Assembly (NCBI GenBank): GCA_029582155.1
Contig: CM055899.1
Location: 83,146,556-83,210,555, forward strand
Direction: 5' to 3'
Source of the DNA: Panopea generosa
Lineage: Eukaryota; Mollusca; Bivalvia; Adapedonta; Hiatellidae
DNA: 64,000 bases
Under the pieces are notes generated by a model, which made no database searches, was not told where the DNA came from, and was given only the letters and a program-made list of their open reading frames with translations. The translations under genes and the position numbers were made by a program. Positions 7,381 to 63,090 of the stretch are shown piece by piece. The first letter of the stretch is position 1; each line of letters starts with the position of its first letter.

Positions 7381-10300
7381 CTAAAATAATAGAACTTTTA
7401 TAGTGAAATGATTGAACAACCTATAATTTGTATTTATCATATATATACGAAGCAATTTTAATGCTTGTACAACATCATAAGTTTTATTGTCTATCTATTT
7501 ACAGATCAGCAATAGGCAATGCTCATTCAAGAACCATTCAAAATGTTTGTAATTGTATTGTATTGGATTTTTGGCACTGATTTACAAGCGTGAAGAAATT
7601 AAATTGGTGTGCATAAATCCTTCAATTTTTCCGGGAATTAATGTTTCATAACATTGTTTATCCACAGTTTGATTTATTGTAATCCTTTAATTACAAGTTG
7701 TGTAGTTAACTGTATGTAGTTCTGTATAAATACGCGTTACAGCCGTATTCACAAGACTTAAGGAAAATTGTACCAACAGCAAACACATCTGGACATAAAA
7801 CATTTATATCTCGGTTTGAACGCTTTGACACAAATAAAACAGTTCACGTATTACATAAAATAACGATATCTGACAAAGCAACGTCTGGTATAAAGATTCT
7901 AATGTATTTATAAACAATAAGAAACTTTCAGAATACAAATGCCAAATTCCATACATTATGTGTGTCATATATATGTTGACATTATATAAATTGCGTTCAA
8001 GTTTCTGCAAATCCCAACAAAATGAGGGAGAACAATCAAACTGCTCCCGGTAAAAAATCGTTCAGTGTTGGATTTATTGAATGATTTAATGTGACGGATA
8101 GGTAAAAAAGTTATAGTTAATCGTATAGCTGTATGTACCAGTCAAAGTCATACAGGTACATACCAGAAAACTGTAAAATATTAAACACCAAGTAGATATA
8201 CGCCATAGTTCCTTAATAATGAGTGATATGTTGTGTGCGAGCGATAACCATTTAAAAGGGAATTTATCAGGATTTTTCACTTTTAAAATTCCAATATATC
8301 AGACCTATATATATTCTTACGTATTATCATCTATATATATTTAATCCTGTCAAAGTAACATATTAAAAAGGAATTTCCTAACATGGGCTATTCGCCTAGG
8401 ATAGACTAAAATAGATTTCCCGCTTAAAAGTGCAATATATTTTATAACGTATTAAATGAGTAGCGTGATTTCTTTGATCGGTTATACACAGGGGTGTATC
8501 CAGGATTTCAGATAGATACGCCATTGATACAGGTTTACACGTAGTAAAATGTTCATCTTAGAAAGAGTCAGAATGACGTCAAGCAGTAGTGAAATGCTGT
8601 CTATTTATAGAATCGGGATTTCTTTTAAATTTCAAGTTTACCACTCCAATTTAAATATCGATTTTATTACGTTTTGGTTGATTTGCCATACCAAACCATT
8701 CGAATTTGATTTATTAATGAAAATGAGTTGCTTTTGATCCATTTTAATAATCATTTCATTTTTAAGACATTTCTAGCATGATTTCCTGATGTACCCCCTT
8801 TAGATATGATTTATATACTGTTACTTATTGTTCATTTACACAATAGTAAAAACTGCAACAATGTTGTTTGAAAAACAAATCAATAAAGTGAGGTTTACGT
8901 ACATGTTTTACTTTATATTTGATATTATTCTTAGATTTGTACCAGTATATTATACTCTTCTGGGTAGCGTCCTAAGCACAGTCCTGTCAAAATGTTCTGT
9001 TTTGCCTCTTTGCTTCTAATCAAACCTGAGACTGATTTGTTGAAATATACAAGTACCACTAACACATACCTGGAATTTTAAAACTTGATGCTACAGGATG
9101 ATTAAATGTCAAATCAATGTTTTGATTTATAAAATTAAATTAAAGATATGTTATTGATACTTTAGGAAATCAATGTAAACACCAACAACATAATGGTTGT
9201 ATGTAATCAAACCAGGAAATATGCTTGTTTCCATAAAGAAAACCTTTAAAGAAAATCGTTAGGGCAATTCTTATTTGCTTATCCAAGACTCTCCCTTCCA
9301 CAACAAAAGGAAAACGAAGAAAGTTAACGCAAACTGTTCAACGAACTGCAAAACAACTTTGTAGTGTGTTATTTATTTACTTATTATGACCGAGTTCTTC
9401 CAAACATTTTGAACACGAGCGAGATTGAAACCTGTCAGTCATATTTATATATACATTAAGGCTGTTACAAAAAAAAGCTAATTAGATTACGTTTTCCATT
9501 TCCTATGTGAATCATGTTGGTCTCCTGGTGCACCTGCTAATACTAACTTTGCAGTAACCCAGTATTTGATGATTTATTTTTAGTAACATATGAACACCCT
9601 TTGAGCGTCAAACTGTTGTAATAAAAACCAAAGAAGAACAGACAGACGGTGATAAAAATCTACCGATAATTAGACTAATAATTAAAATGAAGTGACCCAG
9701 ATAAGATTGACTATGGTTTGGTTATAACCCAAACATCAATTTAGTTTTTACAGTTTTACATTATGAGCACTGTTTTTTTATAGACTGTTATTATCTTCAT
9801 GTCATTGCTTAGGATTGTTATATATTTACTCTCTAAATGTGCATTACGTACCCAGAAGCCACTTATATCATGTTAACAGTCTTTGTTGATGTCGGTCTTG
9901 CTGTTTTTAAAAGAGATAACCGGAGCTTCCTTTACAAAAGCGAAATATACACAATAAATTCAAACGTTTAAAACCGAAACTTACCAAATTATTAAGACAA
10001 ATTTTCAAGATATTTGTTTACACATTCGATTCTTAAATAACATAATACATATAGTAAGTTATGGTAGTCAATGATTTCGTATTTACTAATCGATGAATTA
10101 TTCAAATAACGAATTAAGTACTCGCGACTACATAATTGAACGGTTTTAACAGTTGACCATATAGAAGATCAATGCGATTTTTATACAGTTTATAAATATT
10201 ACATCATATTGAAATAATCAAGTGATTATTTATGACAATCGCTAAATTACATAACATAATATTATAGAAAGTGGATTTGAACATAACAACTTCTTTTCCC

Positions 10301-13300
10301 AATTTTAGTAATTTTGTATGAATGCTCAATAAGATTAAAGATTTTTTTCTGGTGGACTTTCTGCACTTCATCATATTATTGTTTTTACAGCAGCAATCTT
10401 GTGTGAAGTGTATTGGCTGCAGGATGTCATGATTAACTTTGACCCAATCTTTTTATCCTCTGAAAAAATAAAACCATGTATTGTAAGGGTATTGGGTAAC
10501 TAAAAAAATATCGTATATCGTTTATCAAGATCTTTGTACAAAATCCAGTATCTGCTTGGCAATGATAGCCAAAAGTAGCCCGGAAATGTTTATTTACATT
10601 TGAAGTAGACCTTTCTCCAAAAATATAATCGGGTAAACAGTTTACACAGATTATGTACATATTTGTTTTTATCTTGCTCTAAAGTATACATATATGTGTG
10701 TAATATTACTAGATAATTAATGACGGTAGAACAATAAATAAACCTGCTTTATAGTATTGATGAAGTAAACAGAAAATATATGTATAGACACAAGGCTTGG
10801 TACATTTTGCTTTATTAAAAACATATTAAGAAAAGACACTTCAACCCACCCATAATCATAGTTTATGCATAGGTATTTTCCTTCGGCGGTTCAATCGGAT
10901 AAACTGTCCTTTCGGCCCTCCAGTTAAGAACGCCTACGACTGCGACATAAAATGAATAAACACAACTAAAGCATAATTTGTTAATAAAAAAATTAAACTT
11001 TATTCAGATTTCAAACTCACATTGTTACTTATGGGTCTTATCATATTACACAATGCTCCAGGGTACACATGCATTCTTATCAGTGAAAGACTAACAACAC
11101 ATACTATCAAAGTTTAAATATAAGTTTATTAATAAGAACGAAATGAAAAAAAAGTCACAAAAATGATTTAACCTGTCATCCAGTCGTAATTATGTTATTG
11201 TTTCATTTTTATCTGTCTGAACATGATATTAATTTAATATTTGTTTATTTGGCATGAAAATATGTTTAAATTAAATATCACATATGAAATAAGCAGATAA
11301 CTTTATTAGATAAGAAAAAATGTTTCACGTAATACCTTCTATAATACATCGCCACAGCTGACGTGCGTGCCTATAAAACAGGATACCAGTATATAAACTC
11401 TACAATAAAGTTAAGTATCTGGATACTATAGGGATTTTGTGATTTATATCACTTAAATGTGCATGGTAGTGCCAAGTTGTATTTTAGTTTGTTCATCAAT
11501 TTATTGTTTTTCACATGTAGTAAACCGTTTATGAATGAGTATCATTACTAACCCAGATACTAACGTAATAAAAATAAAAACAATATTAAAATATGCATCA
11601 TGCAAAGAACATCATCACAATACAAATACGCCTCGTGTATTGATACATTTTTAATTAAAGAATTCAAACAAACAGTGCATATAAAGTGATGAAAATGATA
11701 AACTCATTCAAACGAGCATAGCAAAGTACAGAATTACGAAGTTCTGGATTGTTTTACCAAATATTATTTTCTTAAAATATCTACCCATTTTGCCAAGGTA
11801 ATCCTGTACATTTTTAAGACTACATCCTCCCTCTCGCCGTATCCATTACCATATCATAAAACGAGTTAACGGATGTAAATGTTTTATGACTAAGTTTAAG
11901 TTTGATTTTAAGAGCTCTTCTAGCTATCTTGACATCTGACTGTTAAAAAGTATAATTTAAACATTCAGCACCATTTTTGCCGTTCCTGTCAATTATTATC
12001 AAATTGAGAAGAGACGGTGTCAATAATACATTCCTGTTATTCTATGGCAAACACATGAGGTTGTATATGCCATAAGTGAATACGGCATACATCTGATCAA
12101 TAATTTATTTGGTCTTGCTGTGCATATCTTGACACAATTCGACGAAAAGTACAATGTACAAAAGCATAAATATGCATGATTTTATGTACCACACAAATAA
12201 TAATAACGCTAGTATAGGAACGACAGAGGGGCGGTATGATATGGCAGCGTGTCTTAGTATGCTTGTTATATGTCCCTGACCAACACATTCAAAATATATT
12301 CAGAATTATGGATATTCAAGAACTCATAGCGCTGTGAGACTGACAAGACTACATGCAGCATATGTATAATAGGATGGAGAATTTGCCATCTCTCTCTGGA
12401 AATATTTGCATTGAAATTAATTAAAAATGCCAGAATATAGGTCACAATATTTCGGTCATCTGGCAGCCCCAATGAACTTTTTTTCAACATAACACAAGCG
12501 ACATGTATGTAAATTGTATACGCCGCAATGCCACTTTAAATATTTTAATATAATTATCACTGTCATCAAAGAATGTTAGTTTTGGAGTCATTCAATGTAT
12601 CAAATACAGTCTTCCCAATTTTTTTAATGCGAATAAATGTTTCAAGAGATATTGGTTCAACTCAGTAATCTAATACAATAAAATACAATAACATAATGCT
12701 TGTGTCCAAAATTGAATTTATCAAATTTTAATCATAATCTTTAAAGACGTTAAAATTCAACAATGACGTTTACTTTTTCGATGTGTTGAATTAATCACAA
12801 TGTAATGGCAAGCTTGATAAATACTTATATGACCTTCATATTAAAAGTAGACGAAATACTCACATTAAGCCATGTAAAAAAATACTTTTTATTTTCATAT
12901 GCTTGGTTACGATCTGAACTTCCAACAGTGGCTACGAAGGAAAGAGGGATTATGTATTAAGACTTATATGACTACCATATTGAAGAAAACTGAGTATTCT
13001 GCCGACTTCCGTCGGTAATTCAAAATATGTTTAATAAGTTTGTTTAATATATGTTCAAATAAAAATCTATATACAACTCACACATCTGTAAAATATTCTA
13101 ACTAATATGATTTACTTCTAACATAATTGATGTTTTCAGTTTACTTCCTCTAGTATATCCTATATATCTTTGTATTTATTTTATTTTCGCTGAATTCAAT
13201 ATATATTTTAGACGTTTAATAAATTATATTTACCAACGTCAGAATTCAAACCATGTTTTTATACCAAATAATGCACTTTGATCATTGAAGATTACGTGTA

Positions 13301-13740
13301 TTTACAGTTCTGCAAATCCTGAAATAATATCACATTAAAACATGTATAAAAATATCAAAATATCAAAACCTAATTGCTTTTCCTCATTACGTAGACACTT
13401 AAATAGAAATACGATTTATCAGATCTTAACTCCGATTGTGATATTAATTTCCACCATCAAGTGTTTTCAGATGGAAAATACAAAAACTTACACATTGTAA
13501 TGAGTTTGTTTTCTCTTTTGCTTTGCAAATATTTACGTAGATCAAGAAATTATGAGAAACCATCAAATGTGTTGCAAGACAAATAAACAAACATTGCATG
13601 CTTTCTCTACGTATTTTGATTATAAATGCTTTGTATTCTTAATTTCATCTATCGTGAAATAAATTAATTGCTTAGTTTTAGCTAAAGAACACACAACAAC
13701 AACATTATCTTAATTTTATCGACAAATCTCTGTCTGTCTA
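7381..13740 (+). repeat. Array copy A
   Basis: About 6.4 kb. It starts with sequence similar to 40075-40160 in D, then runs through landmark 1 (7870), a block shared with B and C near 9155-9480 (gagcgagattgaaacctg), a further block at 10390-10640 shared with B and C, landmark 3 (11465), and the end blocks at 12470 and 13490. It lacks the telomere-like module and the 39.0-39.7 kb module of D-F, and has no minisatellite where D-F have one (after 12840). No gene is seen; open frames are all under 80 codons. Confidence 0.75.
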
Positions 13741-15229
13741 TCTGTTGTGTGGCGGCTGGCTTTAGGATATGTTTCTGTGAGATATAGTTGATGGGTCTCA
13801 CTTCCCGATCTGTGGGATGGGACAACACTTTATATACTCTAATGAAACATTTTATGACAAAATATCCAATCTGCAGGCCTTGCTATTTACATGAAGGTTC
13901 TCCAAGAGAGAGTAAATATACGATAGACAATAGATACTCACCTGACCACAAATATAATGGTGAACTGGAATGATATAGGCATATATATTCAATGGAGATC
14001 GGATAAACCAAGAAGATATGCACTATATGAGAGACGGTAATAAACTCCATCAATGAAGGTGGTCCTTTGTGCTAAAGAGATTTGTTTTTAATGTTGACCT
14101 ACAAACAACAATATGTATTTCGCCATTCTCGGCTATTCGGCTAGGACTTTAACTTTTCATTAAAACATGTTACTCCTGCGATGCAAAGTGACTTCGGATT
14201 ACGGAAAAAACCTAAACATATATGAAAAGACGTAATGCAATTTAACTTTCTGCTCAACATAATAACGTGCATCTGTTAACAAATCGACAAGAGCCATTTT
14301 TAAGAATAATTAAAACATTTATAAGTATATTGTATGAGATTATTGGAGCTTGGTTATCAACGGGAATATAGTAAATTGCAGTGTATAAATCCTTCAATTT
14401 TCCCGAGATTTATATGTCATAACATTGTTTATCTGCAGTTTGATTTATTGTTATTCTTCAATGACAAGTTTTGTAATCAACTATGTGCAGTACTGTATAT
14501 ATACGTGCTTCAGCTGTATCCACAATAATAATGTGAACTTGTACTACCAGTAATCGCATCTGGATGTGAGATATCTATATTTTGGTTTGTACGGTAAGAT
14601 GCACAATAAAACAGTTTATTTGTTCTAAAAAATATTATATCTGACGAAGCAACGTCTAACATAAAAAGTCTAATGCTTTTAGCAACAGTAAGAAATTAAT
14701 AGTCAACTATTTGACGTAAGATTGTTTTCGGAATTCAAGTCATTCTACGAGGTATACACTATAAATGTCATGTGCTATAATTTCCGTTACATTATAAAAA
14801 GGGCGTAGAGGTTTCCAGAAACAAATCAATTCAGTGATAGAGAACAACAAGACATTGTTCGGTTAATAATTGTTCAATGTTGTTTGTTTAATGCGTTTTT
14901 ATAATAAAAAAACCCAAAAGAGTTTCAACTGAAATTGATTCATTAGAATATCAGAATATAGTTTTATTTTCAATATCCAATAGGCACGCAGGCCCATCTG
15001 GTACCTGATATATACAGAAACATATGACAGACAGTGGTTAATTTATGCTATTTAACAGTTACAGTATTAGTTTATATTATAAATCGTATCGAAAATAGCT
15101 AGATTAAAGCAATGGTGTAAGTAAAGGTGAAAGGAGAAGGTGGTACACTGTACTGCATAGGCAACACATTTGTAATATTCAAAAGTCATGTCAGAAAAAC
15201 AACAACAACAACAACATGATCTTACCTAG

Positions 15230-16590
15230 TTATACTTTGAATAGAGTATGAATATAAGAAAATAAAAACCAAGATGTGTATCAGACATATATGGCTCTAT
15301 TTCTGGTTTGAAAAGCTTTTAATATAATTTTTTTTTTATTGTACGCTTATTTTCTGAATTGAACAATTTGATAAACTTAGGCATGTTGGGTCTGTTCAAT
15401 AATATTTATTGATATACAAATTTCGTAAATCGGAATATAGTACATATTAAATAATTAAATGGTTTTTATCCTCTAATTCATTACAAAATCTGCAATTTCT
15501 TCGTGAAATGGTGTTCTAATTGGACGTTTCCAACGGCCTGCCTCCACGTCTAAACGATGCGACGAGACACGTAATTTCGCAAAAGTTTTAATGCACTTTT
15601 GAAAGTTTGATAAAATCTAAAATTAATAATATGATTGTGAAACACACCACGTGTGCCGAATTTGGATAAATAGTACACTAATTCGTTGTTTCCCTTAAAT
15701 TTTACAGTATTGAACTCTTGATTTTATAGACGAATACATTGATCTAATAATATAATATTTTACCCCTAATTCCTTACTTAATCAATCATACCACAACTTG
15801 TCACGTCCTATATAATCAAAAGCTTTAGTAAAATAAATGAATGCATATATTAGATTTTTACCTTGATTAAGAATATGATTTACCAGACCATATTATCAAC
15901 AGTACTCATTTTGTTTTATCTAAAACCGGCCTGAGCCTGTATATAAATATCGTACGTTTCTGCCCATTCATAGAGTCTTTTATTTCAAATAATGTACCTA
16001 AACAACTTAATAACTTAATTTCACGATAATTATAAACTACACTTGTTCTGCCCTTTTTGTGTAATGGTATAATATGTCACTATGGCCAACATTCAGGAAA
16101 ATAACCAATATCGAATATTAAATAGTGTAAATAATGTTGGCAGTTTTATCAATTTACCGTGGATAAAAACAAAATTTATTATATAACCAGGGCCACCTGA
16201 GTTGTTCGACTTTAATTGCTCTAAAGCCTTCAAAATGTCATTGTTCGTGAATGCCGAATTTGATTCCTCTAATAAAACTTCAAACTCGTTATTTTCATAT
16301 CTATCAATATAATGTAAAATGTCCTCATCTGGGATAAAAATCATCTGAAGGGTTATTTACTGATTTAAAATATTGTTCAAATAAAGACAAAAAGGAATAT
16401 TTGATTGTTTCATACCTGAAGCCTCATCAAACATGTTCCAATACAATTTTGCTTTTTTAAAACGAGCATTAATATGTTCATTTGTTTGTTTGCATCCAAA
16501 TTGTGTAGTGCATTTCCTTAAAAGTATCTTATATTCCGATGTGGCCTTAATCCTTTTATTTTGTCGAAATCGATTAAACATTCTCACAAT
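15230..16590 (-). pseudogene. LINE-A linker, truncated reverse transcriptase and C-terminal Cys region
   Basis: 16587-16357 reads YKILLRKCTTQFGCKQTN and FKKAKLYWNMFDEASG, the linker normally placed between EN and RT. 16344-16093 reads FTNNDILKALEQLKSNNSGG, the usual RT entry motif, then HGKLIKLPTLFTLFN. After several frame changes an RT segment with NYR and AFDYI-like words follows. The catalytic FADD region is absent. 15600-15300 reads RNCRFCNELEDKNHLII and YVLYSDLRNLYINKYYW, matching the C-terminal CxxC...H...C module of many invertebrate LINEs. I infer an internal deletion of about 1 kb. Confidence 0.7.
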
Positions 16591-16929
16591 GGAATATTAA
16601 GCATCATTACATTTTTCATTATACCGTGGATTTACATTGTTATTACCAAACGTACGATGTTCTTGTTTACCTTTATTTGTTTTTTATTAAATTAAGGAGA
16701 TGCAACTCGTTCAATAATATCATTTAAAGTTGTTACACAATAATTAATATTTTCTCCCGTGAAACATTCCTGTATATTTACATGAAAAGCATTAAAGGCG
16801 TCGATGCACTCAGAGGCACATCAGTTATCGTTAAAAATAGAAACTGTATCACTGTTCCGTTTATACTTATATAAAAAGTCTTTAGATCTTTCATTTCTGT
16901 TTTCAATATCAATATTATTACTAATACTT

Positions 16930-17840
16930 TTTTTAAAATTCTAAATTAAAAGAAAATAAATAATGGTCAGATAAAATATTTCGGTCACATACTTCAAAAT
17001 GTTTAATATATGGAAGAAAAAAAACATTTTGCGAAGCAAGAACATAATTCACAAGACTACACCCTAGATTTCTAACAAAAGTATACTTACCAACGCCTTT
17101 ATCATTACCAAACCTTCCGTTCAAAAAACGCAAAAATCCAACAAAAGAGAATCGTTATCATTAAAATGACCTTGGTCTAATGAGGATGAAGGTCAATCGT
17201 CATCGGCTATGTAGCTATCAATAAACATTTATATGAAATTATCATCATCATTTACGACAAAGTCAACATGCATTGAAGTTCGAACATTCAAATCTTAACA
17301 GAGCATATAATGAAAATTATCAATATTATAAGTATTGTTACAATCTCTATATAAGTATCGTTATCATAAGTATTGTTACAATCTATATCTATTATTGAAT
17401 TTAACGATACATCAAAAATATTTGTATCGTTAAATACCTGACAGCTGCTGTCATCTGGTATAACGTAACATAATCCAATAAATAATTCTGATTAAACAAG
17501 AAATAAACACGAGATAATTTCAACCATATATCGTCTTTATCATTGAATACAAGAGTATGTTCTGAAACATAGCTATCTCTAAAATAAATAACAATTACAC
17601 CCGAACAACGCTTTGCATTTCTGTTATTTTCAGTTCCGAAAAAATTGAACAAACAGAAACGAATTCACTGCCAGTACCGATTAAATATTTGTCCAAGTTT
17701 TAGTAAACACAACAATATCATTATTTGTAAAAACACAGCTTAATTCTTTGTTTTTAAGTTTATTTGTTCTGCGCATCACTTAACCCCGTACATTTAATAA
17801 CATACATCGTAAAGTCACCTTCCCCGACATGCGGTGAACC
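16930..17840 (-). pseudogene. LINE-A APE endonuclease remnant
   Basis: Start region reads DIVVFTKTWTN (the catalytic-Glu strand of APE enzymes is normally TETW; here E reads K). It continues with CSGVIVIYFRDSYVSEHT, then DDIWLKLSRVYFLF and YVIPDDSS. The C-terminal part (17133-16933) reads RFLNGRFGNDKGVGKYTFVR and then DRNILSDHYLFSFNLEF, which contains the SDH catalytic box. In the middle, FIDMFIDSYIADDD is recognisable but broken by stops. APE endonucleases nick the target DNA to prime reverse transcription. Several frameshifts are needed to follow it, so it is non-functional. Confidence 0.75.
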
Positions 17841-18880
17841 AGAACCAGACTGATTCGTGGTGACGATTGGCTGACTTAACGTACTATTAATAGACCGTCC
17901 TGTCCCATGACGAACCCTCGTTTCTGCGTATGTACGTGTGCACTGATTCCGACATTTTATTAACGTGAACAACACGTTTTAATGGAGAACGGTCACGTGA
18001 CTGTTTTGAACTGTTACTTTCTCTGGATTTATTCGTGGGCACATTAAATGAAGAGCACGACTTGTGTATTGAAGGCTGTATAGATGTTATGATACACTCA
18101 GCACGTGATACTGTGTTCGACACCTCTGTCTGTGTATTCATTGCCGAAAATGGTTCCAAATTGGTGTCCGATAACTGTTGATTGGTTGACCGACATATCG
18201 ACACTGGCGCCTGCACTGCTACAGTCCATATCGTCACGTATCCCATTATTCGTATTTTCACGTGCAGTATAAAGTGGAATATCTGATGAACAAGTTTGTG
18301 AGCTTGAAAAGTGTACACTGTCTTTAATGTTAACATTTGTCAATAGTTATATCGAGCATTTTCGTAAAACGATTGCTGTACATGGATTTATTCCAGTCGG
18401 GAAACGCATCCTCTTTTATCTTGCCATCCATCAACAGCTTGGCCGGGTATACAATCAGTACTTTAGATCTGCGGTACCTTTTCCTGAACCTCTTACATTG
18501 AGGCCACAACATTTTTCTGGCTTCTTGGATATATTTTGGCATGTCGTAATCAGAAGAGTAAGGGATACCTGTCAGCATATTAACCATGCGCATAATGGCC
18601 TCTGTATTGCTAAAGTCTCTAACGTTGACAATGATTCGGCGATGTGGGTTTTGAGTTCCAATCTTACAAGCACCCAATCTATGAACACAAATTTCTATCT
18701 GGGTCCAGGTTAAGGCAATTGTCCAAGAAATCACTAAACAATTTTCACCATGTTTCTCGCTAAACCCCCAGAAGATCCAATTACGACGTTGACTCCATGA
18801 TTTCATATCAATGGACTTGAAGGCTTATGTTCTGAGGAGGCCAGTTTGTTGATTTGTAACATTAATAATGTCACCTACCT
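17760..18880 (-). pseudogene. LINE-A ORF1-like protein remnant
   Basis: A 158-codon frame (18806-18330) carries the pattern of LINE ORF1 proteins. It has IEICVHRLGACKIG, then RRIIVNVRDF (RNA-binding fold core), then PKYIQEARKMLWPQCKRFRKR and KLLMDGKIKEDAFPDWNK, like the C-terminal domain of ORF1 proteins that starts with a paired Arg/Lys-rich helix. The following Ser/Asn/Gln-rich tail continues in shifted frames (18343-18098 and 18336-17887), ending with RSPLKRVVHVNKMSESVHTY. In live elements this protein packages the RNA. Here it is split by at least two frameshifts. It sits immediately upstream, in transcription sense, of the endonuclease. Confidence 0.65.
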
Positions 18881-49214: not shown

Positions 49215-49355
49215 AGTTGTTCCGTTGCTCCGACACTTTGATTCAGTAGTATTATTCGACCCTCCGCAATGGCTATAGGTGGTGTCCTTGAGCAAGACAT
49301 ATTTTCCGCATATTCTTGTAAGTTATAAGAATTTGTTTCACAATAAAAGTTAACA
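49215..49355 (+). mobile_element. Old SINE remnant, copy E
   Basis: Orthologue of D 37225-37365 (gtgtccttgagcaagacata, then tttgtttcacaataaaagt). Confidence 0.65.
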
Positions 49356-50770: not shown

Positions 50771-50944
50771 CTATGAACTTATTGAAAAAAATTCTTATAT
50801 TTGTGAATAAAAAAACAAATAGAAAATATGTACTGCAAGATAACAAAATATAGCGTAAATATATAAAGTTGATTTAACAATTATGTTTGTACGTTTATAT
50901 ACATATTTCTCGAACTATACTAAACGGAACAGCTTATCCGCCAT

Positions 50945-51117
50945 CTGACATTTTATGTACCTGATATTTTATGTACCTGGCATTTTATGTACCTGGCATT
51001 TTATATACCTGACATTTTATGTTCCTGACTTTTTATGTACCTGGCATTTCATGTACCTGACATTTTTGTACCGTACCTGGTATTTTATGTACCTGGCATT
51101 TTATGTACTTTTCTCAA
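50945..51117 (+). repeat. 16-bp minisatellite, about 10 units, copy E
   Basis: Unit cattttatgtacctgg with variants (gacattttatgttcc). Expanded from about 4 units in D. Copy F lacks the array at the equivalent point (about 62590). The 98-codon plus-strand frame across it is a repeat artefact. Confidence 0.88.
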
Positions 51118-51206
51118 AAAATGTCAAAGCAATTTCTTTGAAATTTAGACCAAAATATATAAACCTGTTCATTACAATTTGTTTGACACAAAACATGCAT
51201 GTACAG

Positions 51207-51220
51207 CTAGGGTTAGGGGT
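51207..51220 (+). repeat. Telomere-like TTAGGG tract, copy F
   Basis: About two units (ctagggttaggggt) after gcatgtacag, the shortest of the three orthologous tracts. Confidence 0.65.
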
Positions 51221-51444
51221 CGGCTACATTAGACTATGTTTTGTCGTATGACTGTCCTTCACTTAAGTTGTACTGCTAAATAAATATACATGTCTCAGGT
51301 ATATGTTTTCTTGATGATCTTATCATTCTTAAGTTCTGTAATGTTATTACATGTGATAATTAAAATGGTAAAGAAAAGATTATGTTATTGTTGTTGTTGT
51401 TGTTGCAACACCGGCACAACGTTGTAATTTTATTTACGTCTATA

Positions 51445-51900
51445 CGTCTCACATACCAATTAATTGTGTACTGTTCTACATATAGAGACATGCACTTCTG
51501 GAACACTGGATACATTACCAATGGTTCTAAAAGTGCCTTGTTCCCATAGAAAGTCCTCTGTTGGTTCAAATATGCAGAAAAAAATCATTGGGTTGACCAG
51601 GTTGCTTTTTCACAATTTCGATGGTTTGATGACACTCCTTCATTATTGACAATTCTGCTCATTTGTTGCAGTGTTCACTACGCATCTTTAAACTGTTATA
51701 GCATCATCAAACAGTTGCGAATGTCACCCAAACTTTGCAGAAATCATGAAAATGTTCCAATATTCCCATATGCACAAAGACATATGACATTTAATGCATT
51801 TTTAACAAAAGAAATGTCCAACCGCTTTACACAGCTCTTATTTCTTTGGCGTAATAATCTTGCTACCGTCATGTAAGGAAGGTAATTCTTCAGTGAGACC
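51445..51900. mobile_element. MITE, 456 bp, copy 1 of a two-member family
   Basis: Flanked by TATA at 51441-51444 and 51901-51904. Ends cgtctcacataccaa and, on the other strand, ggtctcactgaagaa, giving a terminal inverted repeat of about 8-9 bp (gtctcac). Copy E lacks it: at 41050-41065 the sequence runs tttacgtctattcgtttaca. About 420 bp of the interior match 58490-58951 (for example acatgcacttctggaacac and cgctttacacagctct). The two open frames inside (61 and 76 codons) look spurious. A 4-bp TA-rich target duplication with no coding region fits a non-autonomous DNA transposon. Confidence 0.82.
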
Positions 51901-53674
51901 TATATGTTTACAAGTAAGAGATAGACAATGTTCATTCAAGAATCATTTATAATATTTGTTATTCTACTATATTGGATATTTGGCACTGATTCATAAATGA
52001 GAATGAAATGAATTGCTGTGCGCAAATCCTTTAATTTTTCTCGAGACTCTATATTTTATAACATTGTTAATCTGCAGTTTGATGTATTTTAATTCTTCAA
52101 GTTGTGCCGACAACTATATACAGCAGTGTATAAATATGCGCTGCAGCTGTATATTCTCACTAATTTATTGAAATTGTACCACCATTCAACACGTCTGGAC
52201 ATTATAAGCTATTTATATCTATGTATCTACGCTTTGATACGCACTAAGTTAGTTTGTTCTATAAAGTTACATGTACGATATCTGACGAATTAAGGTATAA
52301 CATTAAGATTCTAATGTATAAATCGACAATGATAAACTTATAGTCAATTATTGACATGTATTTTGACATGAATCGAAGTTAAATTACAAGGCATACCCTA
52401 TAACTGCAATGAAAAAGAAAATATAAGTGCAAAACAACAGAATCTACCGGACAATATTGTCCACCATTTTATTCCATTGTTGCAAACAGGCTAGATTGTT
52501 TTATGTTTTATTCGAGTAAATCATATTCCTATTATTGGTAAGCAAACATACCAGGATATGTAGTTATTTCTTTCTTATTACGAAAAATTATAAATAACAT
52601 ATATGTTTGTCGGCTTATCTATACTCACAAATACATTGTCAATGTCGGCATGTAAAAACATACGTAAAAAATCATACTAACTATATCATTCATAATAAAT
52701 GAGAAATATCGTTTGTCAGACTGAGATGCGCATAGTCTTAATCCAGAAACAGGGAGTCATGCATAAATATAATAAGGTAAACAGTATAACAAGTCACTGA
52801 TTGTAATTTACACATATTCGATTACACTGAATATTTGACGACGGCAGAACGCTAATACATGAAGGTCACATGATGCAATATTGATTGCACGTCATCTCGT
52901 AATGTGTTTGTTGCATTTCTTCAAAGATAAATTAGTTGTATTCATTAGATAAATATAAACATGTAAATATGCTTGGATAAGAAATAATGTTTAAATATTA
53001 TACTTGTATAACTAGTTAACTGTTTACAAGCATTGATAAGATGCCGAACAATGTACCTAAATCCCTAGTTATCCTATCGTGACGTAGTTGTAGTTCATCC
53101 ATTAGTATTATGCTATTTATACAATATTGTTATGTTACATTATAGTCCTTCTCTAAATAACTATAGAAAGTTATTGTTATTTAGGAGCTGGGCGTTGCCA
53201 GTTTGAGGGCAAATTGTGCATTACATAATGTAAAGTATTTTCGTATAAACTATCCTTTAACAAAATAATAAAATAAAACAAAGAAAGCAATAAACATATT
53301 CTCATTTCCATAATACGTTTCAACGCAAGCAAACACATCCCATGAGATATTGATCCACAAAAGATATGAGTATTGGGCCTATTTACCTAAACAATTATTG
53401 ACTCTTAATCTTTTACGTTTTGCTTTTATAAGAGCAACACATTAAAAAAGGTTTGCTGTATTAAAAACGTATTAAGTAATAACACCGTAAACCACCCATA
53501 ACAACAGACTATTCTTTGCAAACTTCCTTTGGGGAAACTGTCGGATGAACTGTCGCGGAATAACCATGTTTGGCCTCCTGCGAAAAATACCGTCAGCAGT
53601 CTTGCTTTCCTTTGAAACATCTACCCAACTACCAAAAAATAATTATACCATAGTTGTGTAAACAAATCCCGGAT

Positions 53675-53765
53675 AAGAGTAGATACAGTGTAAACTGCCA
53701 ACGCTAGAGGTTCCGAGTTCGATTCCCTGCTCGACCCTTTGGACTCTCAAAACACAACTCAGCAC
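53675..53765 (+). repeat. Single tRNA-Gly-like segment, copy F
   Basis: One unit with ctgccaacgctagaggttcc and gagttcgattccc. The second unit found in D and E is missing. A more decayed version is in C near 27783-27830. Confidence 0.55.
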
Positions 53766-55884
53766 GTGTTCTGCCCGTAAGCGTACCCAAGATATGTCCA
53801 TATAAGCCCTGAAATTTACATTGCAATTGAGTTAAATTAAATAAGCATAAACTTGACTATTCTGCACTGGTATCGCTGGTACATTTGTTATCATATTTTC
53901 AACGCACACTGTTACTTTTGCGCCCGAAACCACTGTAGATACCATTATAAAAATCATACGACCCTACGTTTACCGGCATTTATCCGAAAGAAGACAAAAA
54001 TGGTATAAATGTTACCAAATAAGGAACGAAAAAAATAATATATTATTCCATTTTACACCGTTCGAAAATATATATTGTAAAGTGGTTGAAAGGAAATGGC
54101 CGTATCTAATGTTGGGAAAACTTGTGACATGACCCTTTTGCCTATAATTGTATATGATTTATTACTTATTGTTACAACAATAAAAATTTTAACATTTTTT
54201 CAATAATTGATTACATAAGGTTGATTCATTCATTATATCTTTATATGCAGAAACCTTCAATAACACATCACCACAGCTGATGTGCTTATCTTTGAAATAG
54301 ATTCAAGTAGTGTAATTACAGGATAACACTAAAATCAGGCAGGATATAAACACGATCATAAAATTAAGTCTCCGGATACGAAAGGTATTCTGTGATTTAT
54401 AGCACTAAAATTTGCACGGTAGTGCCAAGTTGTAACTTATTTTGTACACGAATTTAAAACTTTTCACAAATACTAAATCGTTTATAATGAGTTAAAAATC
54501 TTGAACAAAATAAATAACTCAGATTCCAACCTATAAATATAAGAAAGTTATTAAAATATGAATCAGGCAAAGTCCTCACCACAACACAAATACGTACAGA
54601 CAGTGCAATGATATAAACTAGAATAATGGAACGACATACATACAATACAGAGAAATTTAGATGACGCTATTGATATGACCAACAGAACTGATTAAAAGTT
54701 TGGTCATTTACGTAAGATAGATGATTCGAACAGGGCTTTTATGATGTTTTAGACATCACTCTGCTAATGTCGCTGTGATAAAATTGTGCAGTTTAAACCA
54801 TCACAAAATGATCATACGCAACACTTTTCAACCGTCGAAACTTATATTTTTTAGCTATTTTATTTACGAAACAAATCGAGCAATGAAAATATATTGTAGA
54901 CATTGTATTATGTCACTTTGAACGAATTTAACCAAACGCTACACATATAAAAAAAGTTAAGAAGGCATATGAATGATTACTAATGCACGGCAATAAATGT
55001 TTTGATCTAAACGTGTCTATATTTTGTCGAGGTATTCCGGTATATTCTCTTAAACTACAACCTCGCCCTTTCTATCTCCATCATCACATCATAATAGTCC
55101 ACACCTGATTACGTTTAAGTTTGATTTTAAGAGCTTTACTAAGAATATTGACAATACATTTTACTGCATAAATATTATTAACCTTAAACATTCATCTCCA
55201 GTAATTAATGTCAATCGTTATCAATTTGACAAATGACGATGCCAAACGGTATTTGCCTGCCATTTGTATGAAAACAAATTATAGGTCATCTTGTAAATGT
55301 GATACGACGTAAATCTGCGCTTTAGTTTGTTTTACTTTTTACTGCAATCACATCTTAACTCAATTCAACGACATTAACAATGTTGTTGAGGTAGAAGAAA
55401 ATGATGATATTGTATAATGTTATGGTATCATACAAACAGTAATAACGATTGTATAGAAACACAGCGTAATCTCTTAATATTATCGTGTCATTGTTGTGTG
55501 TTATATCCTTGGTCGAGTAGTTCAACATACCTGTAGAATGATGAATATATTTGCACTTATAACTCGGAGACATTTACAAGATAACATAAGGATAGATAAC
55601 CCCGATGTCGGTATTGGTCTCACTGCACAGTTAAACTAAATTTTGTGACGGTCACACAACTATATTGCGCTAAAAATCATACAGTTTGATAATTTTTGGA
55701 CTTGATCAATACTTTCCATAGCACACCGGTATAGAAGTAAGCATATCTATGACTAATAGAAGATATGTATATTTGGTAGTTTAAATTCAACCAGCTTAGA
55801 ATGCATAACACTTTTACAATGATTCTACATTACATTTATTTAGCAAAAATGATGAATGTTATTGCCAACAAATCATTTATATAC

Positions 55885-56060
55885 ATGTATCAGTGGTAAT
55901 TCTGTGTTCGTAAATTAAACATCGACTGACAGGTGTATTACTTTTGAAGACTTTGTTTAATGGCAATGGAAGAAACAGAAATATCGGAGATTTGTTACCA
56001 GATAATTGTTCAGCATTCGTGACGATGGATTCCAGACCTCTAAAACGAATATGAGAGGGA
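55885..56060 (-). other. Possible fossil exon, copy F
   Basis: Minus-strand frame reads GLESIVTNAEQLSGNKSPIF, then LFLPLPLNKVFKSNTPVSRC and LIYEHR. It is open here and in C (29902-29714: AEPLSGNKSPRFLFHQLPLN). It is interrupted by one stop at the same codon in D (about 35955-36135) and E (about 48305-48475). Between E and F the aligned codons show about 7 silent and 10 replacement differences, weakly suggestive of past selection. An acceptor-like cgttttag precedes it. No family is recognised; it could be chance. Confidence 0.3.
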
Positions 56061-56796
56061 CCTTAAATAAAGTATTGTTTATATCTCGTTAGAAATTTAA
56101 TTTTCATTAGAAAAGAAGAGCTTAGATTGATAAGATAACGATAAACTTCTGTAATACTTCTGTACAAATGTGCTCTATTTTGTGAAATAGTTATTATTTA
56201 TTAAAAGCAAATTTAGCTATTGACATTTCATTGCATCCTATTTACCGTTATATTTGTCGAAATCTATATTTTGCGCTTAGCTACATTGCAATAAATAGAT
56301 GTATGTTTTGATGGAGAATTAGTCAGCTCTCCATAGAAATGTTTATATTTAAAATTGTAATTATTTCAAGTATGCCAGAAAATATGTTAGACATTCTGAT
56401 CAGAAAACTTACTTCAATTGCCAGCTTCAATGAATTTTCTTTTTACATTATACGTTTACATTTAAACAGTATACGCCACAATGTCAGTTTAATTATATTA
56501 TCCAAGTCATCGTAAAATATCAATTTTGGAGTCATTCCTTGTTTAAAATATAAACCGAGTCTTATCTATCAATACAACAGGCAGTTGCAAGAGAAATTGC
56601 TTAAGCCCAGTAAGCTAATGAAATGGTTTACATTAATATAATAACTTCGTTGACCATAACAAGTGATATTAATTATCTATGAATTTTAAGTGACATGTAG
56701 TATGTGTATAATTAATAGAAGACAATACTCTGTAATAATGTTTCTTACACTTGATAAATAATTGTATGGCTTTCATATTATAAATAGATGAAATAA

Positions 56797-57650
56797 AGTA
56801 TAACTAAATAAAGTGTATAGTATAATTGACAAAATATATAGTTTAACCGATAAATATGTACATGTACAGTATAACTGATCAAAATATATAGTATAAGTGA
56901 TAAAAATGTATAGTATAACTGACAAAATATATAGTGTAACCGATAAAAATGTATAGTATAACTGATCAAAATGTATAGTATAAGTAATAAAAATGTATAG
57001 TATAACTGATCAAAATGTATTGTTTAAGTAATAAAAATGTATAGTATAACTGACAAAATAAATAGTGTAACCGATAAAAATGTATAGTATAGCTGATCAA
57101 TATATATAGTGTAACCGATAAATATATATAGTATAATTGACAAATTTTATAGCGTAACCAACAAAAATGTAAAGTATAACTGATCAAAATATATAGTATA
57201 ACTGATAAAAGTGTATAGTATAACTGACAAAATATATAGTGTAACCGATAAATATGTATAGTATAACTGATCAAAATATATAGTAGAAGTGATAGAAATA
57301 AATAGTGTAACCAATAAAAATATATATTATAACTGATCAATATATATATATATAGTGTAACCGATAAGTATGTATAATATAACTGACAAAATATATAGTG
57401 TAACCGATAAAAATGTAACGTATAACTGACAAAATATATAGTATAAGTGATAAAAAGTTATAGTATAACTGACAAATTATATTGTGTAACCAATAAAAAT
57501 GTATAGTATAACTGATCATAATATATAGTGTAACCGATAAAAATGTATAGTATAACTGATAAAATATACAGAGTAACCAATAAAAATGTAAAGTATAACT
57601 GATCAAAATATATAGTTTAACTGATAAAAATACATAGTATTACTGATGAA
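56797..57650 (+). repeat. Expanded minisatellite with a 43-bp higher-order repeat, copy F
   Basis: About 40 monomers of 20-22 bp. Two monomer types largely alternate: type 1 tataactgacaaaatatata and type 2 tgtaaccgataaaaatgtat. This gives a 43-bp two-monomer unit across much of 56900-57560; some stretches use a third variant with actgatcaaaa. Three minus-strand open frames here (63, 124 and 89 codons, rich in Tyr, Leu and Ile) arise only because the repeat lacks stops in that frame. Confidence 0.93.
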
Positions 57651-57754
57651 TGTAAGTAAAACAGATCATTGTCATATACATTTGGTTACGTTTCGTGCTT
57701 TAAAGGCAACGATTTACGAGATATAATTGACTATCACAGCAGCAGTCGTACATG

Positions 57755-57895
57755 TACTTGTTCCATCGTTCCCCATGTTGATTTAGTAGTGTTGTTCGAC
57801 CCTCCGCCATTGCTATAGCTGGTGTCCTTGAGCATGACACTTTTTTCCGCATATGCTTGTAAGATGTAACTTCTTTCATAATCAAGGTAAACTAG
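57755..57895 (+). mobile_element. Old SINE remnant, copy F
   Basis: Orthologue of D 37225-37365 (gtgtccttgagcatgacact, then ttctttcataatcaaggt). Confidence 0.6.
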
Positions 57896-58489
57896 AGTAT
57901 TGTTATAAGAATACCGCTTAAGCGCCTATTAGTGGACAGGTATGGCGGATGTTGCAGCTTCAACACAAGACTGCTATGATCTTCCGTTGGTTGCCTGTAT
58001 GCGTCATAAAAGTTTTTCATCAGATGTCATATATCGTGGTTGCCAATGTATCTAATTGTTAGCGGATGGCATATTAATCCTTTGACACAAAGGATCTTTT
58101 CTCAAACGCTAGAAAGATAAACTTAACAACATTGTGTATATCAAAAGTATTTAAATGAATCATAATATATAATAATGACTGTTTTTTTCTTTTAAGAGTT
58201 TCGGTATTAAAATTAGTGGAATGAAAACGTTAGGAAGCCCTGTACTTTTAAGCGAAATTGTATTTCGTCTCAATCACTTTTCTGTTATGTCTTTGCCATA
58301 TTGGCCTATATTGTAATTTCCTCTAAATAAACCTTTTTTTATCAGTAAGCAATGTGTAGAACATCTGAATTTGGCCAACATTTTGTCAAATCGCTTAATA
58401 AATATTTTTTTCAGAAGTGTGTACAAACTTGAAACCGTTACAATTGTCTTATTTACTGGTAGTTTTTAAGTGTTCGTGCCAAACGTAAA

Positions 58490-58951
58490 TGTCTCGCACA
58501 GGATTTAATTTTATTCTGTTATACATATTTAAACATGCACTTCTGGAACACTTGATACATTACCATTACCATTTCAAAAAGTGCCTTGTTCTTATAGATT
58601 ATCCTCTGTTGTTTCAATTATTGCGAAAAAAACTTGGGGTTCACCAGGTCGATTTTTCGCAATTTTGATGATGGTTTGATGGCATCCTTTCATTTTTGAC
58701 AATTCTGCCCATTTGTTGCAGTGTAGCACTACGCATCTTTAAACTGTTATAGCGTCATCAGGCAGTTCCCAATGTCATCAAAACTTGGCAGAAATCATGA
58801 AAATACTTCAATGTTTCCATATGCACAAAGAAATATGACATTTTATGCATTTTTAACAAAAAGATAGCCCAGCCGCTTTACACAGCTCTAATTTCTTTGG
58901 CGTTAGAATGATGCTTCCGTCATGTTAGGGAGGTAATTCTCAAGTGAGACC
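58490..58951. mobile_element. MITE, 462 bp, copy 2 of a two-member family
   Basis: Flanked by TAAA at 58486-58489 and 58952-58955. Ends tgtctcgcacagg and, on the other strand, ggtctcacttgagaa. The empty site is visible in copy D at 38136-38150 (ccaaacgtaaacagtaag). The interior matches 51445-51900 with many substitutions, so the two insertions come from one family but are not recent twins. It inserted into the 3' part of the LINE-C remnant region. Confidence 0.82.
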
Positions 58952-59620
58952 TAAACAGTAAGTTTCGAATTGTAGTGACCCATGAGTGCGCCCATTATCA
59001 TCTGATCTATTAAGCATATTATAACACTGACGTGAATGTATGTCGTAATCAATATGTATGAATGTAACGCACAGTGGCAGTCGACCACATTCACCATCTG
59101 CGCAGGGATCCAAAATTGTTTACAAAATATTATGTAAACTTTTTCTATCCTGTCAATATATTGAAAGCCGAATATTTCGGAACTGTTACAGACTGTTTGC
59201 TTAACTTTACACTCAAAATATTTAAACATATCAGTATGATATAATTGACTAAACAGGCCATCGCCATTTGCTCGTTTAGATGCACACTGGTTTGTTTTCG
59301 ACCATGCCAATTTTGCAGTCATGTAATACCTAAGTATTTATATTGAGAGGCAGTTAGGGATTATTTTCATAAAAACAATTTACACAATTATATTATACAC
59401 CGCCATTTCTAAAGTAAACAGTTTTCAGCCAGGGTAATGGTTACCTTAACAGTATCACCAACTTTCGAGATACAACCATTTTGCCTCTGCAATTGAATGG
59501 CAGTTTCGAAAAGGTTTGAAATATGATAAGCCTGTATTAGTGCAAAAAGGTCAAACGTTTCTTTATTAATACTATTACCACGGTCAAATGTAATAAATAA
59601 TTGATATATATTCAAAAAGT
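58952..59620 (-). pseudogene. LINE-C fragment: end of reverse transcriptase and start of the C-terminal domain
   Basis: 59615-59409 reads HISNLFETAIQLQRQNGCIS then KVGDTVKVTITLAENC, resembling the stretch after the FADD box (normally ADDI..FETAI.LQ.QL and a segment ending KTKI.VFRNGG). RNGG follows in another frame, then YKYLG. 59322-58951 reads YYMTAKLAWSKTNQCASKRA, then EIFGFQYIDRIEKVYIIFCK and QFWIPAQMVNVV, like YMTPKLVW...SEIWGFQYIDRIEKVH. At least two frameshifts. The last 90 bases (58955-59045) have an orthologue in D (38140-38230), so this LINE was part of the ancestral unit and is mostly deleted in D. Confidence 0.7.
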
Positions 59621-59639
59621 ATCGTTGACTGGCCGGTGT

Positions 59640-60590
59640 GGTGTTTACAAGAAGCGACAGTAAATGGTGTCACTTACGTGCTGTACGATGAACATGTATT
59701 AATATGAGACAGTCACTAAGGGAGTCGTGATATGGAGAATTATTGCATCAAATTTATAAACTGTAGGTTGCCATACGGCAGTCATTGTTGCAAACCTTTA
59801 GTCAACAGTCTATTGTCATTATAGGGAAATTTTTGTGGCATCATCGTACTGATTCATATGCAATGGTGATAGAGAATTTATTGTGGCAACACTATACTTA
59901 ACCAGATGCTGTTGTGATATAAGACTTCTGTTGTGGCGGCAATATTTAATTAATAATACATGCAATTTTTCATCATCTGTTTTTTAAACAATACCATGAT
60001 GCACTACCCTAAAATGATTATGATATTCATGCTAAACGTTGCGGACTTGCAATAACCTCTACAATTGAACTGCATCAATATAGCATGCATAGTCAATTTT
60101 GATCATTTTCTATGATACGATATGGAGATTTTAAGAAATAGGAATTCTAAGATGGATTGTGACATAACCTTTTACCTTAACTACATACTCTTAGTATTTA
60201 TTCTAAATATACGTATATGGTCCTTCTTGGCCGATTGGTCTACTGAGCTGTAGTCTGTGCTCGGCACAGGATCATTTTTGAGAAATTGTGCCAGGATGTG
60301 ATTTTCTTAAACAATAAAACTCACTATCCCAAATATAACCTTTCACATGATTACATTGGCGTTAAATGCAACTAAAACATATAATCAGTAAAACATACAA
60401 TCAAAAAATAATGACATAACATGCCAGTCACGATAATTAGTAAACCAGGTACTTAACTGATGTTTATGAACTGTTTAGACCCTTTGTATTCGAAATTACT
60501 AACCCTCTTGACTTTCCTTGCCAAAGTGCCTTACCTATATTTGGCTGTTAATGTGATACGGAAACGTCATTATGTGATACCAATGTGTAC
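59640..60590. other. Unassigned DNA in copy F
   Basis: No match to the other copies, no recognisable domain. 60228-60300 has a tRNA-like head (ttcttggccgattggtctac, then tgtgctcggcacaggatc), possibly a SINE fragment. Copy D has a deletion at this point (38232) or F an insertion. Confidence 0.4.
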
Positions 60591-61020
60591 CAATCACGTC
60601 CGGATATAGGTTTGTCGTTTTTTGTCAAATATTGTACGTACATATATAACCTGAAATGTGTTAAATGCCGTTTGCTCTATAGAAACGTACTGAGATAAGT
60701 GATTTATAAAGTTTAACGCCATTTGAACACATTTCAGGTTATATATATTCAATTTTACTGCTGGAGAAATCCCTCAGACTGTCAGAGTGAATAGAACCAA
60801 CGTATTTCCGCAAGTAACTTGCATCTTTTCGCACATAAAGTTTTTCGAGCCAACGGGACTCGAACATTCAATTTAAGCGGTGAGAGGTTAGTGATCTTGA
60901 GACGGCGCCAGTTTACTCAATCATGTCAGGAGTTTGTCCTTTTTTGTCAAACATTGTACATGTTATGTAAATAACCTGTCAAATGAGAAGTGTTGTTTTG
61001 TTTTGCAGAAACGCACTGAA
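60590..61020 (+). repeat. Local direct duplication, copy F
   Basis: 60590-60700 (caatcacgtccggatatagg..., gaaacgtactgag) and 60915-61020 (caatcatgtcaggagtttgt..., gaaacgcactgaa) are related to each other and to D 38250-38350. F therefore carries the segment twice, the first being the more decayed. Confidence 0.6.
60642..60748. repeat. Inverted repeat (27-bp arms, 52-bp spacer), copy F
   Basis: Left arm 60642-60667 (atatataacctgaaatgtgt...) and right arm 60720-60748 (...acacatttcaggttatatat) pair at 26 of 27 positions with one extra base. The arm sequence is itself part of a worn local duplicate of 60900-61020. Copy D does not have the right arm. Confidence 0.75.
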
Positions 61021-61659
61021 GGTAGCTGAAGGGATTTATAGTAAACTTGCATACTTGAATAATTTAAAAAGAATGTGTGTACCGAACACATATATCACCC
61101 TTGATTTGTTCTGGCGTCTGCTGTTACTGTTTAGTTCGGCGCGTGAAAATAAATATTCAAATAAGATTCCTCAGTGACTTTTCCCGGCCACACCAGACAT
61201 ATAAATTCGTAACACAACAATCAGACATGTGTACGATATACCTAGACAGTATTCTCATAACTCAATCTAGACATTTACCTTCATACCTGCAAATCCTCAA
61301 ATGATGTGTAAGCAACAAATATATAAAGAACACATCACTAAGAGTAAAAATAACTGTGTAAACAGGTTTCTAGTTTAAAAAAAAAAGTGAAAAAAAAAAA
61401 ATTATTGCCGAGCTTTCTCTAAAAATCAATATGCGTCTATCGTTTGGTAAACATATGAGATCATATAATTACTCTGTATATACTATATAATTACAATGTT
61501 TAGTAAAGAGAGACGCACATAATCGAGACAGCAAAATTTCAAATAAAGTCTTAACATGCCACACACTGAATTTAACGTTTAAACAAAAATAAACTATTCG
61601 CATTTGATGTTTAATAACATTCACAGTTACATGATCGAAAATGTATCTCAATTGCCAAT

Positions 61660-62490
61660 GTGACTTGATCAGCGAATTTTGCACAATGACCTTGGGTGAA
61701 AATATTGGCACTTCCGAACGTTATAGACATAGAATACAACACGCGTGTTTGATTTTAGAAGTATCCAGAAAATGAGTCCAAAATAAACGACGTCAGGTTG
61801 CCTCGCCATACAGTTGATTGACTGGACAATATGACAGCGACTTGATGAGTCCAGCGTGAAGCAAACCACACGTGACGCCATACATGTCAGCACATATTAA
61901 CCACGAAACATTTCAGTCTCCGTTATAAAATTAACCATTTGGAACGTGATTGGTATATATAAATTATTTGTTATATTCAATTGTAATGTACAGACTTCTC
62001 ACCGTAATTGATTATGACAATACACGATACGCTAAAATCTAATCAAAGTGTACCATGATGGTCCAACAAAGATATCAGCAAACGAAGAACAAAAACCGCA
62101 GTGAACTATATCACATGTTTTACACAATTATCATCAATGGGCTTATTAATTTCAAGGGTGTCTTAACAATGATGATATTAGCCATTAGGCTAGTAATTTT
62201 CTGTTATGAAGATAACAGTGTATGCAGTTCTGTATTTGCAGGTTACACAAATGAATTCAGTGTCAATGAATATAGCTTAGCTAAATATTTCAACACAACG
62301 AATCGATTATCAAATGTTGCATAATATTATGTAGAAAGTAAAATTATCATTTTTATTTCATTTTCATATCTTATTTATATTATTGTACAGATAAAACAGT
62401 ACAATACCCAATTTTATACTATCATACAAAAATTAAAGAAAAAATCTACGAACTTATTGAACAACTCTCGTATATTTGTGAATAACAAAC
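61660..62490. other. Conserved module, copy F
   Basis: Minus-strand open frame 61893-61669 contains CHIVQSINCMARQPDVVYFG then LIFWILLKSNTRVVFYVYNV. Plus-strand 62055-62324 (89 codons) matches the second half of the D frame, with YHMFYTIIINGLINFKG and YEDNSVC. It may be a remnant of an old mobile or host gene, or simply a slowly diverging part of the array. Confidence 0.4.
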
Positions 62491-63090
62491 AAACAGAAAA
62501 CATGTACTACAATATAACAGAATATAGGATAAATATATACAGTTGATTTAACAATTTTGTTTATACGTTTATTTACTAATCAGTGGGAAATTATCTGTTC
62601 CGTTCAGTATATGTTTAAAGTATTTCACAGTTTACCAGTTGTTCAGACAACAGCAAAAAGAAAAAAAACACAAAAAAAACCCGCTTTGGAGTAAACTGTA
62701 AACATTTACTCTTTTTTACTGTAATGCACGGACATACAAATCGTCTTAAACCGCCCTTAAATATCATTTGATCAATATTCTAAAAGTTGAATGCTCCTAG
62801 ATTTAACAATGTGTGTACATTATAATATTGCTTTAATGTCAAATAAAATTTATTTATTGGTCTTTTATTAATGTTATTTTATATTCTGTTCTTCATTTAT
62901 GTATAATTAATAAACGTGAGCTGCGTTCTATATACAGTAAACAGCGATCATTGTTTACTGGATTCCTTAACTGATTGTGTAATGCGATCAAATTTGAGGC
63001 CAGTATGAAAGAAAAAAATAGGACAATGTTATCAAACGTTTAACGGTGGTGAAAGCAGAATCATTTTTAATTTATATACTATTGTTACAT

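Follow-up and report, generated by a model that had tools for sequence, protein, structure and literature searches.

A six-unit tandem array in Panopea generosa that resembles an ageing duplication of noncoding DNA

Tandem segmental duplications, which evolve through unequal crossover and conversion, usually carry genes in the cases described. Macrosatellites (e.g., D4Z4, DXZ4, RS447, SST1, and the 1q23.3 tRNA array) are likewise built of kilobase units in tandem and in a single orientation, and some of them are noncoding. According to PMC3018141 and PMC4041453, these arrays usually contain tens of near-identical units that vary in number, with several being GC-rich; monomer identity in two human arrays described in the former is 99.3–99.7% and 97–100%. 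In PMC13130569 the term is used more loosely, for every satellite whose units exceed 100 bp. We analyzed a 64-kb window (the whole stretch of DNA considered here, ~31% GC) from the bivalve Panopea generosa (contig CM055899.1, positions 83,146,556–83,210,555), and found it to contain a 56-kb array of six head-to-tail units, designated A through F, with homology between units spanning window positions 7377–63090. A limited search of the literature turned up no description of this array, and we do not claim that it is absent from print.

Six direct, collinear units of two ages

The whole window was compared with itself by sensitive blastn (E≤1e-3), yielding 163 non-redundant matches, 161 direct and two inverted, with minisatellite matches still counted. 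When matches centered in two stretches of a 22-bp minisatellite were omitted, all 104 matches between units were direct and 97 of them lay within collinear chains. Every one of the 15 unit pairs was represented, by 3–11 matches each, and the seven out-of-order matches came from the pairs CD (two), CE (two), CF, AD, and DE (one each). For seven pairs (AB, AC, AD, AE, DE, DF, and EF) the observed collinearity was unmatched in 500 shuffles of match order. The other pairs were reached by 4 (CE), 5 (AF), 8 (CF), 17 (BC), 23 (BD), 41 (CD), 86 (BF), and 87 (BE) shuffles. Taken individually, the collinearity of B with C, D, E, and F is weak (3–4 matches each); the AF pair has five matches, and CD, CE, and CF each include one or two that are out of order. 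As a control, ten order-1 Markov sequences with the dinucleotide make-up of the window gave one match in total.

The units range from 6.9 to 12.0 kb (Table 1), their lengths being unequal because of inserts and losses. Blocks within the unit follow the order U9, U1, V, U2, U3, U4, U5, U6, U7, and U8, with some blocks missing from some units; V is matched among A, B, and C only. The least certain boundary is that between E and F, where U9 is only partly present. Other units match 72% of unit A (computed with nearly the same unit boundaries). The two edges of the array, 7377 and 63090, share the same unit phase to within ~35 bp: the start of A at 7377 lies opposite the start of U9 in D (31063), and homology between F and D ends at 63090, opposite position 40116 of D. 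In addition, A 7399 is the counterpart of D 40106, and A 7377 that of D ~40084. The number of units is therefore whole, which is what duplication of a single segment followed by in-register expansion would produce.

Units were aligned as blocks and by fast Fourier transform alignments, and they are of two age classes, with A, B, and C old and D, E, and F young. Mean identity in matches is 65.5–70.3% for pairs that include A, B, or C (aligned over 1.0–3.2 kb), and 76–81% among D, E, and F (the D-F figure includes overlapping minisatellite matches). Over gapless columns, identity among D, E, and F is 83–87%, and in 5053 such columns divergence is 0.134 for D-E, 0.171 for D-F, and 0.160 for E-F. 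The closest pair changes along the unit, being E-F at 33.1–34.1 kb of D, mostly D-E at 34.1–35.9 kb, E-F at 35.9–36.4 kb, and D-E from there to 37.5 kb. Informative sites cluster by pair in both alignments of D, E, and F (chi2 157 vs. a maximum of 68.4 among 2000 shuffles, and 38.2 vs. 33.5), and none of the 2000 shuffles reached the value of either alignment. Such a pair-switching patchwork is as left by conversion or unequal crossover between units.

These results bear out the original prediction, which was made from the letters alone and proposed six diverged direct repeats with a recurrent order of landmarks at 7381–63090, coordinates that prove good to tens of bases. Scattered interspersed repeats had been set beforehand as the outcome that would speak against it; the matches between units are instead nearly all collinear. 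The array of kilobase units stands as predicted, but the predicted size range of 6–10 kb does not.

Tandem arrays are often misassembled, and the six units might thus be haplotypes or repeats that were wrongly joined. However, the copies differ from one another by 13–35%, one carries a private insertion, minisatellite lengths and losses vary among units, and the array edges are in phase. Haplotypes would not be expected to show such divergence, private inserts, losses, and phased edges, which makes an assembly artefact extremely improbable.

The array might also be a macrosatellite, that is, a homogenized, kilobase tandem repeat of variable copy number with a chromatin role. This would agree with the size of the units, their direct tandem order, their whole number, and the exchange among them, and the unit length qualifies under the looser usage mentioned above (PMC13130569). 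The array nonetheless has six units only, at 65–87% identity, compared with the near-identical monomers of the two human arrays (PMC3018141), and the window has no CTCF-like site (0 matches at two mismatches vs. 1.23 expected by chance). We consider a macrosatellite in this sense highly improbable. As to the macrosatellite-like structure that the original prediction offered as one of its readings, tandem direct kilobase units without a detected gene, their whole number, and their exchange support it, but homogeneity (65–70% and 83–87%) does not.

The array is probably a noncoding segment that was tandemly duplicated and has since exchanged patches, collected inserts, and otherwise drifted as neutral DNA. 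On this account, a noncoding stretch of ~7 kb would have been duplicated in tandem, and two or more rounds of in-register unequal crossing over would then have raised the number of head-to-tail copies to six. The copies would have kept exchanging patches by conversion or crossover, taking up inserts of long interspersed nuclear element (LINE), short interspersed nuclear element (SINE)-like, and minisatellite type and losing pieces, with the remaining DNA of the array presumably drifting without function.

Search for protein-coding and RNA genes

The window contains a single open frame of at least 200 amino acids starting with ATG, GTG, or TTG, and it encodes a reverse transcriptase, in agreement with the original prediction that no intact host open frame is present. 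Six-frame Pfam scans, with stops written as X, covered ~54 of the 64 kb (all but 5001–7300, 12301–14800, 29801–32400, 56301–57600, and 62601–64000), and the only family above cut-off was the LINE reverse transcriptase of unit E (RVT_1, E=1.5e-27), which doubles as a positive control. A LIM match (E=0.088) and further Pfam matches of single open frames fell under the cut-off and were taken as chance. Searches of the PDB used unit D, translated in six frames, together with a single frame from the LINE region. Unit D gave nothing better than E=0.08, and this match, to superoxide dismutase, was also taken as chance. The window contains no tRNA gene, and none of the Rfam families reached its curated threshold; at E≤5 there were five Rfam matches, every one below its gathering score. 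Together with the lone long reverse transcriptase frame, this is consistent with the window being eukaryotic DNA. Viral contigs contained neither the exact patterns of U4 and U1 nor a relative of the LINE reverse transcriptase.

Coding constraint was assessed by two tests. The first compared BLOSUM scores with those of shuffled columns and gave no convincing signal in the alignments of D, E, and F or of blocks. Among 12 blocks, V2 and U2 were reached by none of 40 shuffles and U2b by one; all three were rejected as coding, as the aligned peptides had stops, misaligned tails, or just eight residues. Simulation revealed that this test has poor power below ~80 amino acids, and it was therefore replaced by a likelihood test that rewards constraint together with an open frame. 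The power of the likelihood test was simulated at divergence like that of D, E, and F, without indels and with perfect alignment, the detection threshold being set by the 95th percentile of 60 neutral runs of 600 bp. Exons of 35 amino acids were found in 40 of 40 simulations at omega 0.1 and in 37 of 40 at omega 0.3 (median scores 20.6 and 13.8), and exons of 20 amino acids in 36 and 23 of 40, respectively. Exons simulated without constraint were called in 2 to 9 of 40.

The likelihood test was applied to D 33064–37600 and 38235–40120 with their counterparts in E and F, and to U1 and U9 as blocks; D 32064–32400, D 32800–33063, and the part of D 37600–38235 other than U7 lie outside it. The best scores in the two alignments of D, E, and F were 8.7 and 9.2; of 20 local shuffles, 6 scored at least as high as the former and 10 at least as high as the latter. 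Constrained exons of at least 35 amino acids are thus unlikely in the aligned DNA of D, E, and F, where none was detected. Shorter, relaxed, fast-evolving, or positively selected exons, or noncoding transcripts, are possible. Across all 14 alignments tested, none of 20 shuffles equalled the scores of U1, U2b, and U8, and one did so for U2 and for U5; for both D/E/F alignments as well as V1, V2, U3, U4, U6, U7, and U9, 3 to 20 of 20 did. Third-position changes were not in excess in three candidate frames (a 126-amino acid frame near 39.3 kb in D, U7, and V). Nor was there a clear excess of conserved splice donors, with 2 and 0 on the plus strand and 3 and 5 on the minus strand, compared to 2–6 in control orientations. 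GC-rich peaks common to D, E, and F were rejected as exons upon inspection by eye of six-frame translations.

An ancestral protein gene might have been inactivated before the duplications, or shortly after them, and have become unrecognizable. Units of this size often carry genes, which was the argument of the original prediction for the graveyard of a former gene family, and the old units are 30–35% diverged where aligned, enough to mask a pseudogene. The scanned parts of the window, though, gave no Pfam match above cut-off besides the LINE, the six frames of D had no credible counterpart in the PDB, and D, E, and F lack a codon signature. Nothing positive speaks for a dead gene family, and we regard it as unlikely. 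No recognizable coding remnant was found in the units by Pfam (~54 of the 64 kb), PDB (unit D only), or codon tests; very old remnants would escape such detection, and the graveyard reading is by these searches neither supported nor excluded. The original prediction also allowed that the units never contained a gene, and this is the simplest interpretation compatible with the results.

Conserved islands and possible function

Several observations weigh against an array that simply drifts. Comparison of old units in 31-bp windows shows short islands in U1, V, U4, and U7 that reach 87–97% identity. In U6 and U8, islands reach 94–100% identity when C is compared with D, E, or F (U8 being up to 97% alike in 31-bp windows); these islands are better kept than their surroundings between old units (for U6 and U8, between C and D/E/F). 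U4 is the longest well-kept island between old units. The scores of U1, U2b, and U8 in the likelihood test, above all 20 local shuffles, belong here as well. In U8, a minus-strand frame of 24 amino acids runs uninterrupted through C, D, E, and F alike. In U7, which does not occur in C, E, or F, a frame of ~17 amino acids remains open in its three copies (A, B, and D), the B copy having an in-frame codon gap (8 of 20 shuffles reached the score of this frame). Variable columns are over-dispersed, with a variance/mean of 2.07 in 50 windows, a value inflated by the last window of 54. At D 39009–39510 is a quiet stretch with about two-thirds of the usual divergence among D, E, and F; in three of its five windows of 100 columns the divergence is roughly halved. 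It overlaps the 126-amino acid open frame in D, which has a frameshift in E and no codon signature; the low divergence may reflect either recent exchange or constraint. Finally, E-F differences amount to 0.0995 (n=422) at sites that D shares with A–C, as compared to 0.148 (n=344) at sites variable among D and A–C and 0.181 (n=2438) at sites without an A–C counterpart. This hints at mild constraint, which could be mimicked by conversion between units or by poorer alignment in the last class.

The islands could be due to constraint, to very short exons, or to patches of recent exchange. Because the high-scoring stretches of U1, U2b, and U8 are short (4–24 amino acids) and score on both strands, and the plus frame of U8 has a stop in D, we read them as probable conserved DNA, with the minus frame of U8 as a candidate coding sequence. 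The two frames of U8 score almost equally (20.2 for minus and 19.5 for plus), and the peptide differs at 6 of 24 residues between D and F.

U1 may be a promoter, to judge from its motifs. It is found in all six units, and a TATA-like word lies within it at 7725 (A), 32509 (D), 41295 (E), and 52129 (F), with a TATATATA variant in B, such that five of six units have the word if this variant is counted. Four of the five plus-strand occurrences of TATAAATAYG in the window are inside U1, although these copies are homologous and hence not independent. Each unit might accordingly be transcribed from U1 into a long noncoding RNA or a gene for a small, fast-evolving peptide, making the array a gene family. 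The short kept islands U4, U7, and U8 follow U1 in constant order, the 24-residue frame of U8 is open in four copies, and small exons could have been overlooked, given the poor power of the first codon test below ~80 amino acids and the recovery by the second of 23 of 40 exons of 20 amino acids at omega 0.3. On the other side are the splice donor counts, the three candidate frames with no third-position excess, the substitutions and near-equal strand scores in U8, and the lack of any RNA family. Hairpins reach z-scores of -4.2 at single places (in U9), but none occurs at matching places across copies. The TATA-like word is broken in C, and the same word occurs five times on the minus strand of the window. 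We consider transcribed units of this kind possible, though rather unlikely. More specifically, the six units might form a cluster of noncoding RNA genes, or of regulatory blocks, each driven from a TATA box and long kept through the islands U1, U4, U7, and U8 while the rest drifts; we consider this decidedly unlikely. Should U1 turn out to function as a promoter, the array would count as a family of noncoding genes in tandem.

Inserts, flanking repeats, and comparison with known systems

Coordinates of units, blocks, and inserts are collected in Table 1. The LINE fragment is private to unit E, with D and F representing empty sites. One frame of this region had 13 matches in the PDB at E≤0.01, including the LINE-1 ORF2 and R2 proteins, and its proteins may be similar to LINE proteins of molluscs. 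Unit B has ~4.4 kb (about 14.9–19.27 kb) without counterpart between the corresponding blocks of other units. This DNA looks as if it may be LINE-derived, on weak evidence, with a single weak blastn match to the LINE in E (16890–17116, 62% over 246 columns). Also in the extra DNA of B is a minus-strand open frame of 164 amino acids (18333–18824) without a Pfam family above cut-off. This frame may be akin to a LINE ORF1. The GC-rich 94-bp piece has a tRNA B-box-like word at 46537 (E) and 53716 (F), and is perhaps a SINE fragment. In unit F, 0.46 kb (51441–51902) recurs out of unit order at 58486–58953.

Table 1. Features of the array, in window positions
Feature	Position	Strand	Further copies and remarks
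Unit A	7377–14231	+	Old; left array edge at unit phase of F right edge
Unit B	14232–23741	+	Old
Unit C	23742–31062	+	Old
Unit D	31063–40105	+	Young; 96% matched by other units
Unit E	40106–51125	+	Young; holds LINE insertion
Unit F	51126–63090	+	Young
U1	A 7452–7927	+	All six units: 14237–14695, 23742–24191, 32431–32709, 41031–41519, 51900–52339
U4	A 11387–11630	+	28408–28651, 34748–35002, 47211–47491, 54340–54594
U7	A 13339–13551	+	B 23110–23528, D 37739–37951
U8	C 30677–30743		D ~38.5 kb, E 49.6 kb, F 61.2 kb; short island
U9	D 31063–32063	+	40106–41109; second half only at 51126–51447; nearly all missing from A
LINE fragment (reverse transcriptase)	41781–45490	-	E only; edges approximate
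22-bp minisatellite	F 56797–57668		~40 copies; D 36912–37123, ~10 copies; E 49066–49119, 2.6 copies
GC-rich 94-bp piece	D 34072–34252 (doubled)	+	E 46497–46677 (doubled), F ~53.65–53.76 kb, weakly C 27754–27914

Directly to the left of the array is a 43-bp minisatellite with 18 copies (5885–6657), and farther left is a GC-rich patch (926–1575, up to 48%) with no Pfam match. A short interspersed element is present in three copies, two to the left of the array (3699–3988 and 4669–4963) and one inverted in unit A (8255–8790). These follow a scattered-repeat pattern, unlike the units of the array.

Six copies of two ages lie here side by side, with patches of exchange, inserts that postdate the separation of certain copies, and no visible gene. 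The array could be used to gauge how DNA of this kind is shaped by unequal exchange, conversion, and decay. As it stands, it changes no known principle.

Among known systems, LINE retrotransposons (LINE-1 and R2) are represented by the insert of unit E through its RVT_1 and protein matches, but this insert lies inside the array and is not its repeat unit. Macrosatellites share with the array head-to-tail, direct kilobase units, and differ from these six diverged, AT-rich units in their near-identical monomers. By sequence comparison, the array appears to resemble a macrosatellite in tandem growth and exchange, without the homogeneity of the human ones in PMC3018141. Tandem segmental duplications of the kind described at the outset have direct collinear units, two age classes, a patchwork, and private inserts in common with the array. 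Collinear units in whole number, with edges at a common phase, and signs of exchange between units are likewise present here; the difference is that described cases are usually gene-bearing, whereas no gene was found in this array. The array appears to be noncoding DNA that was duplicated in tandem and is now ageing, and does not appear to be an element of a new type.

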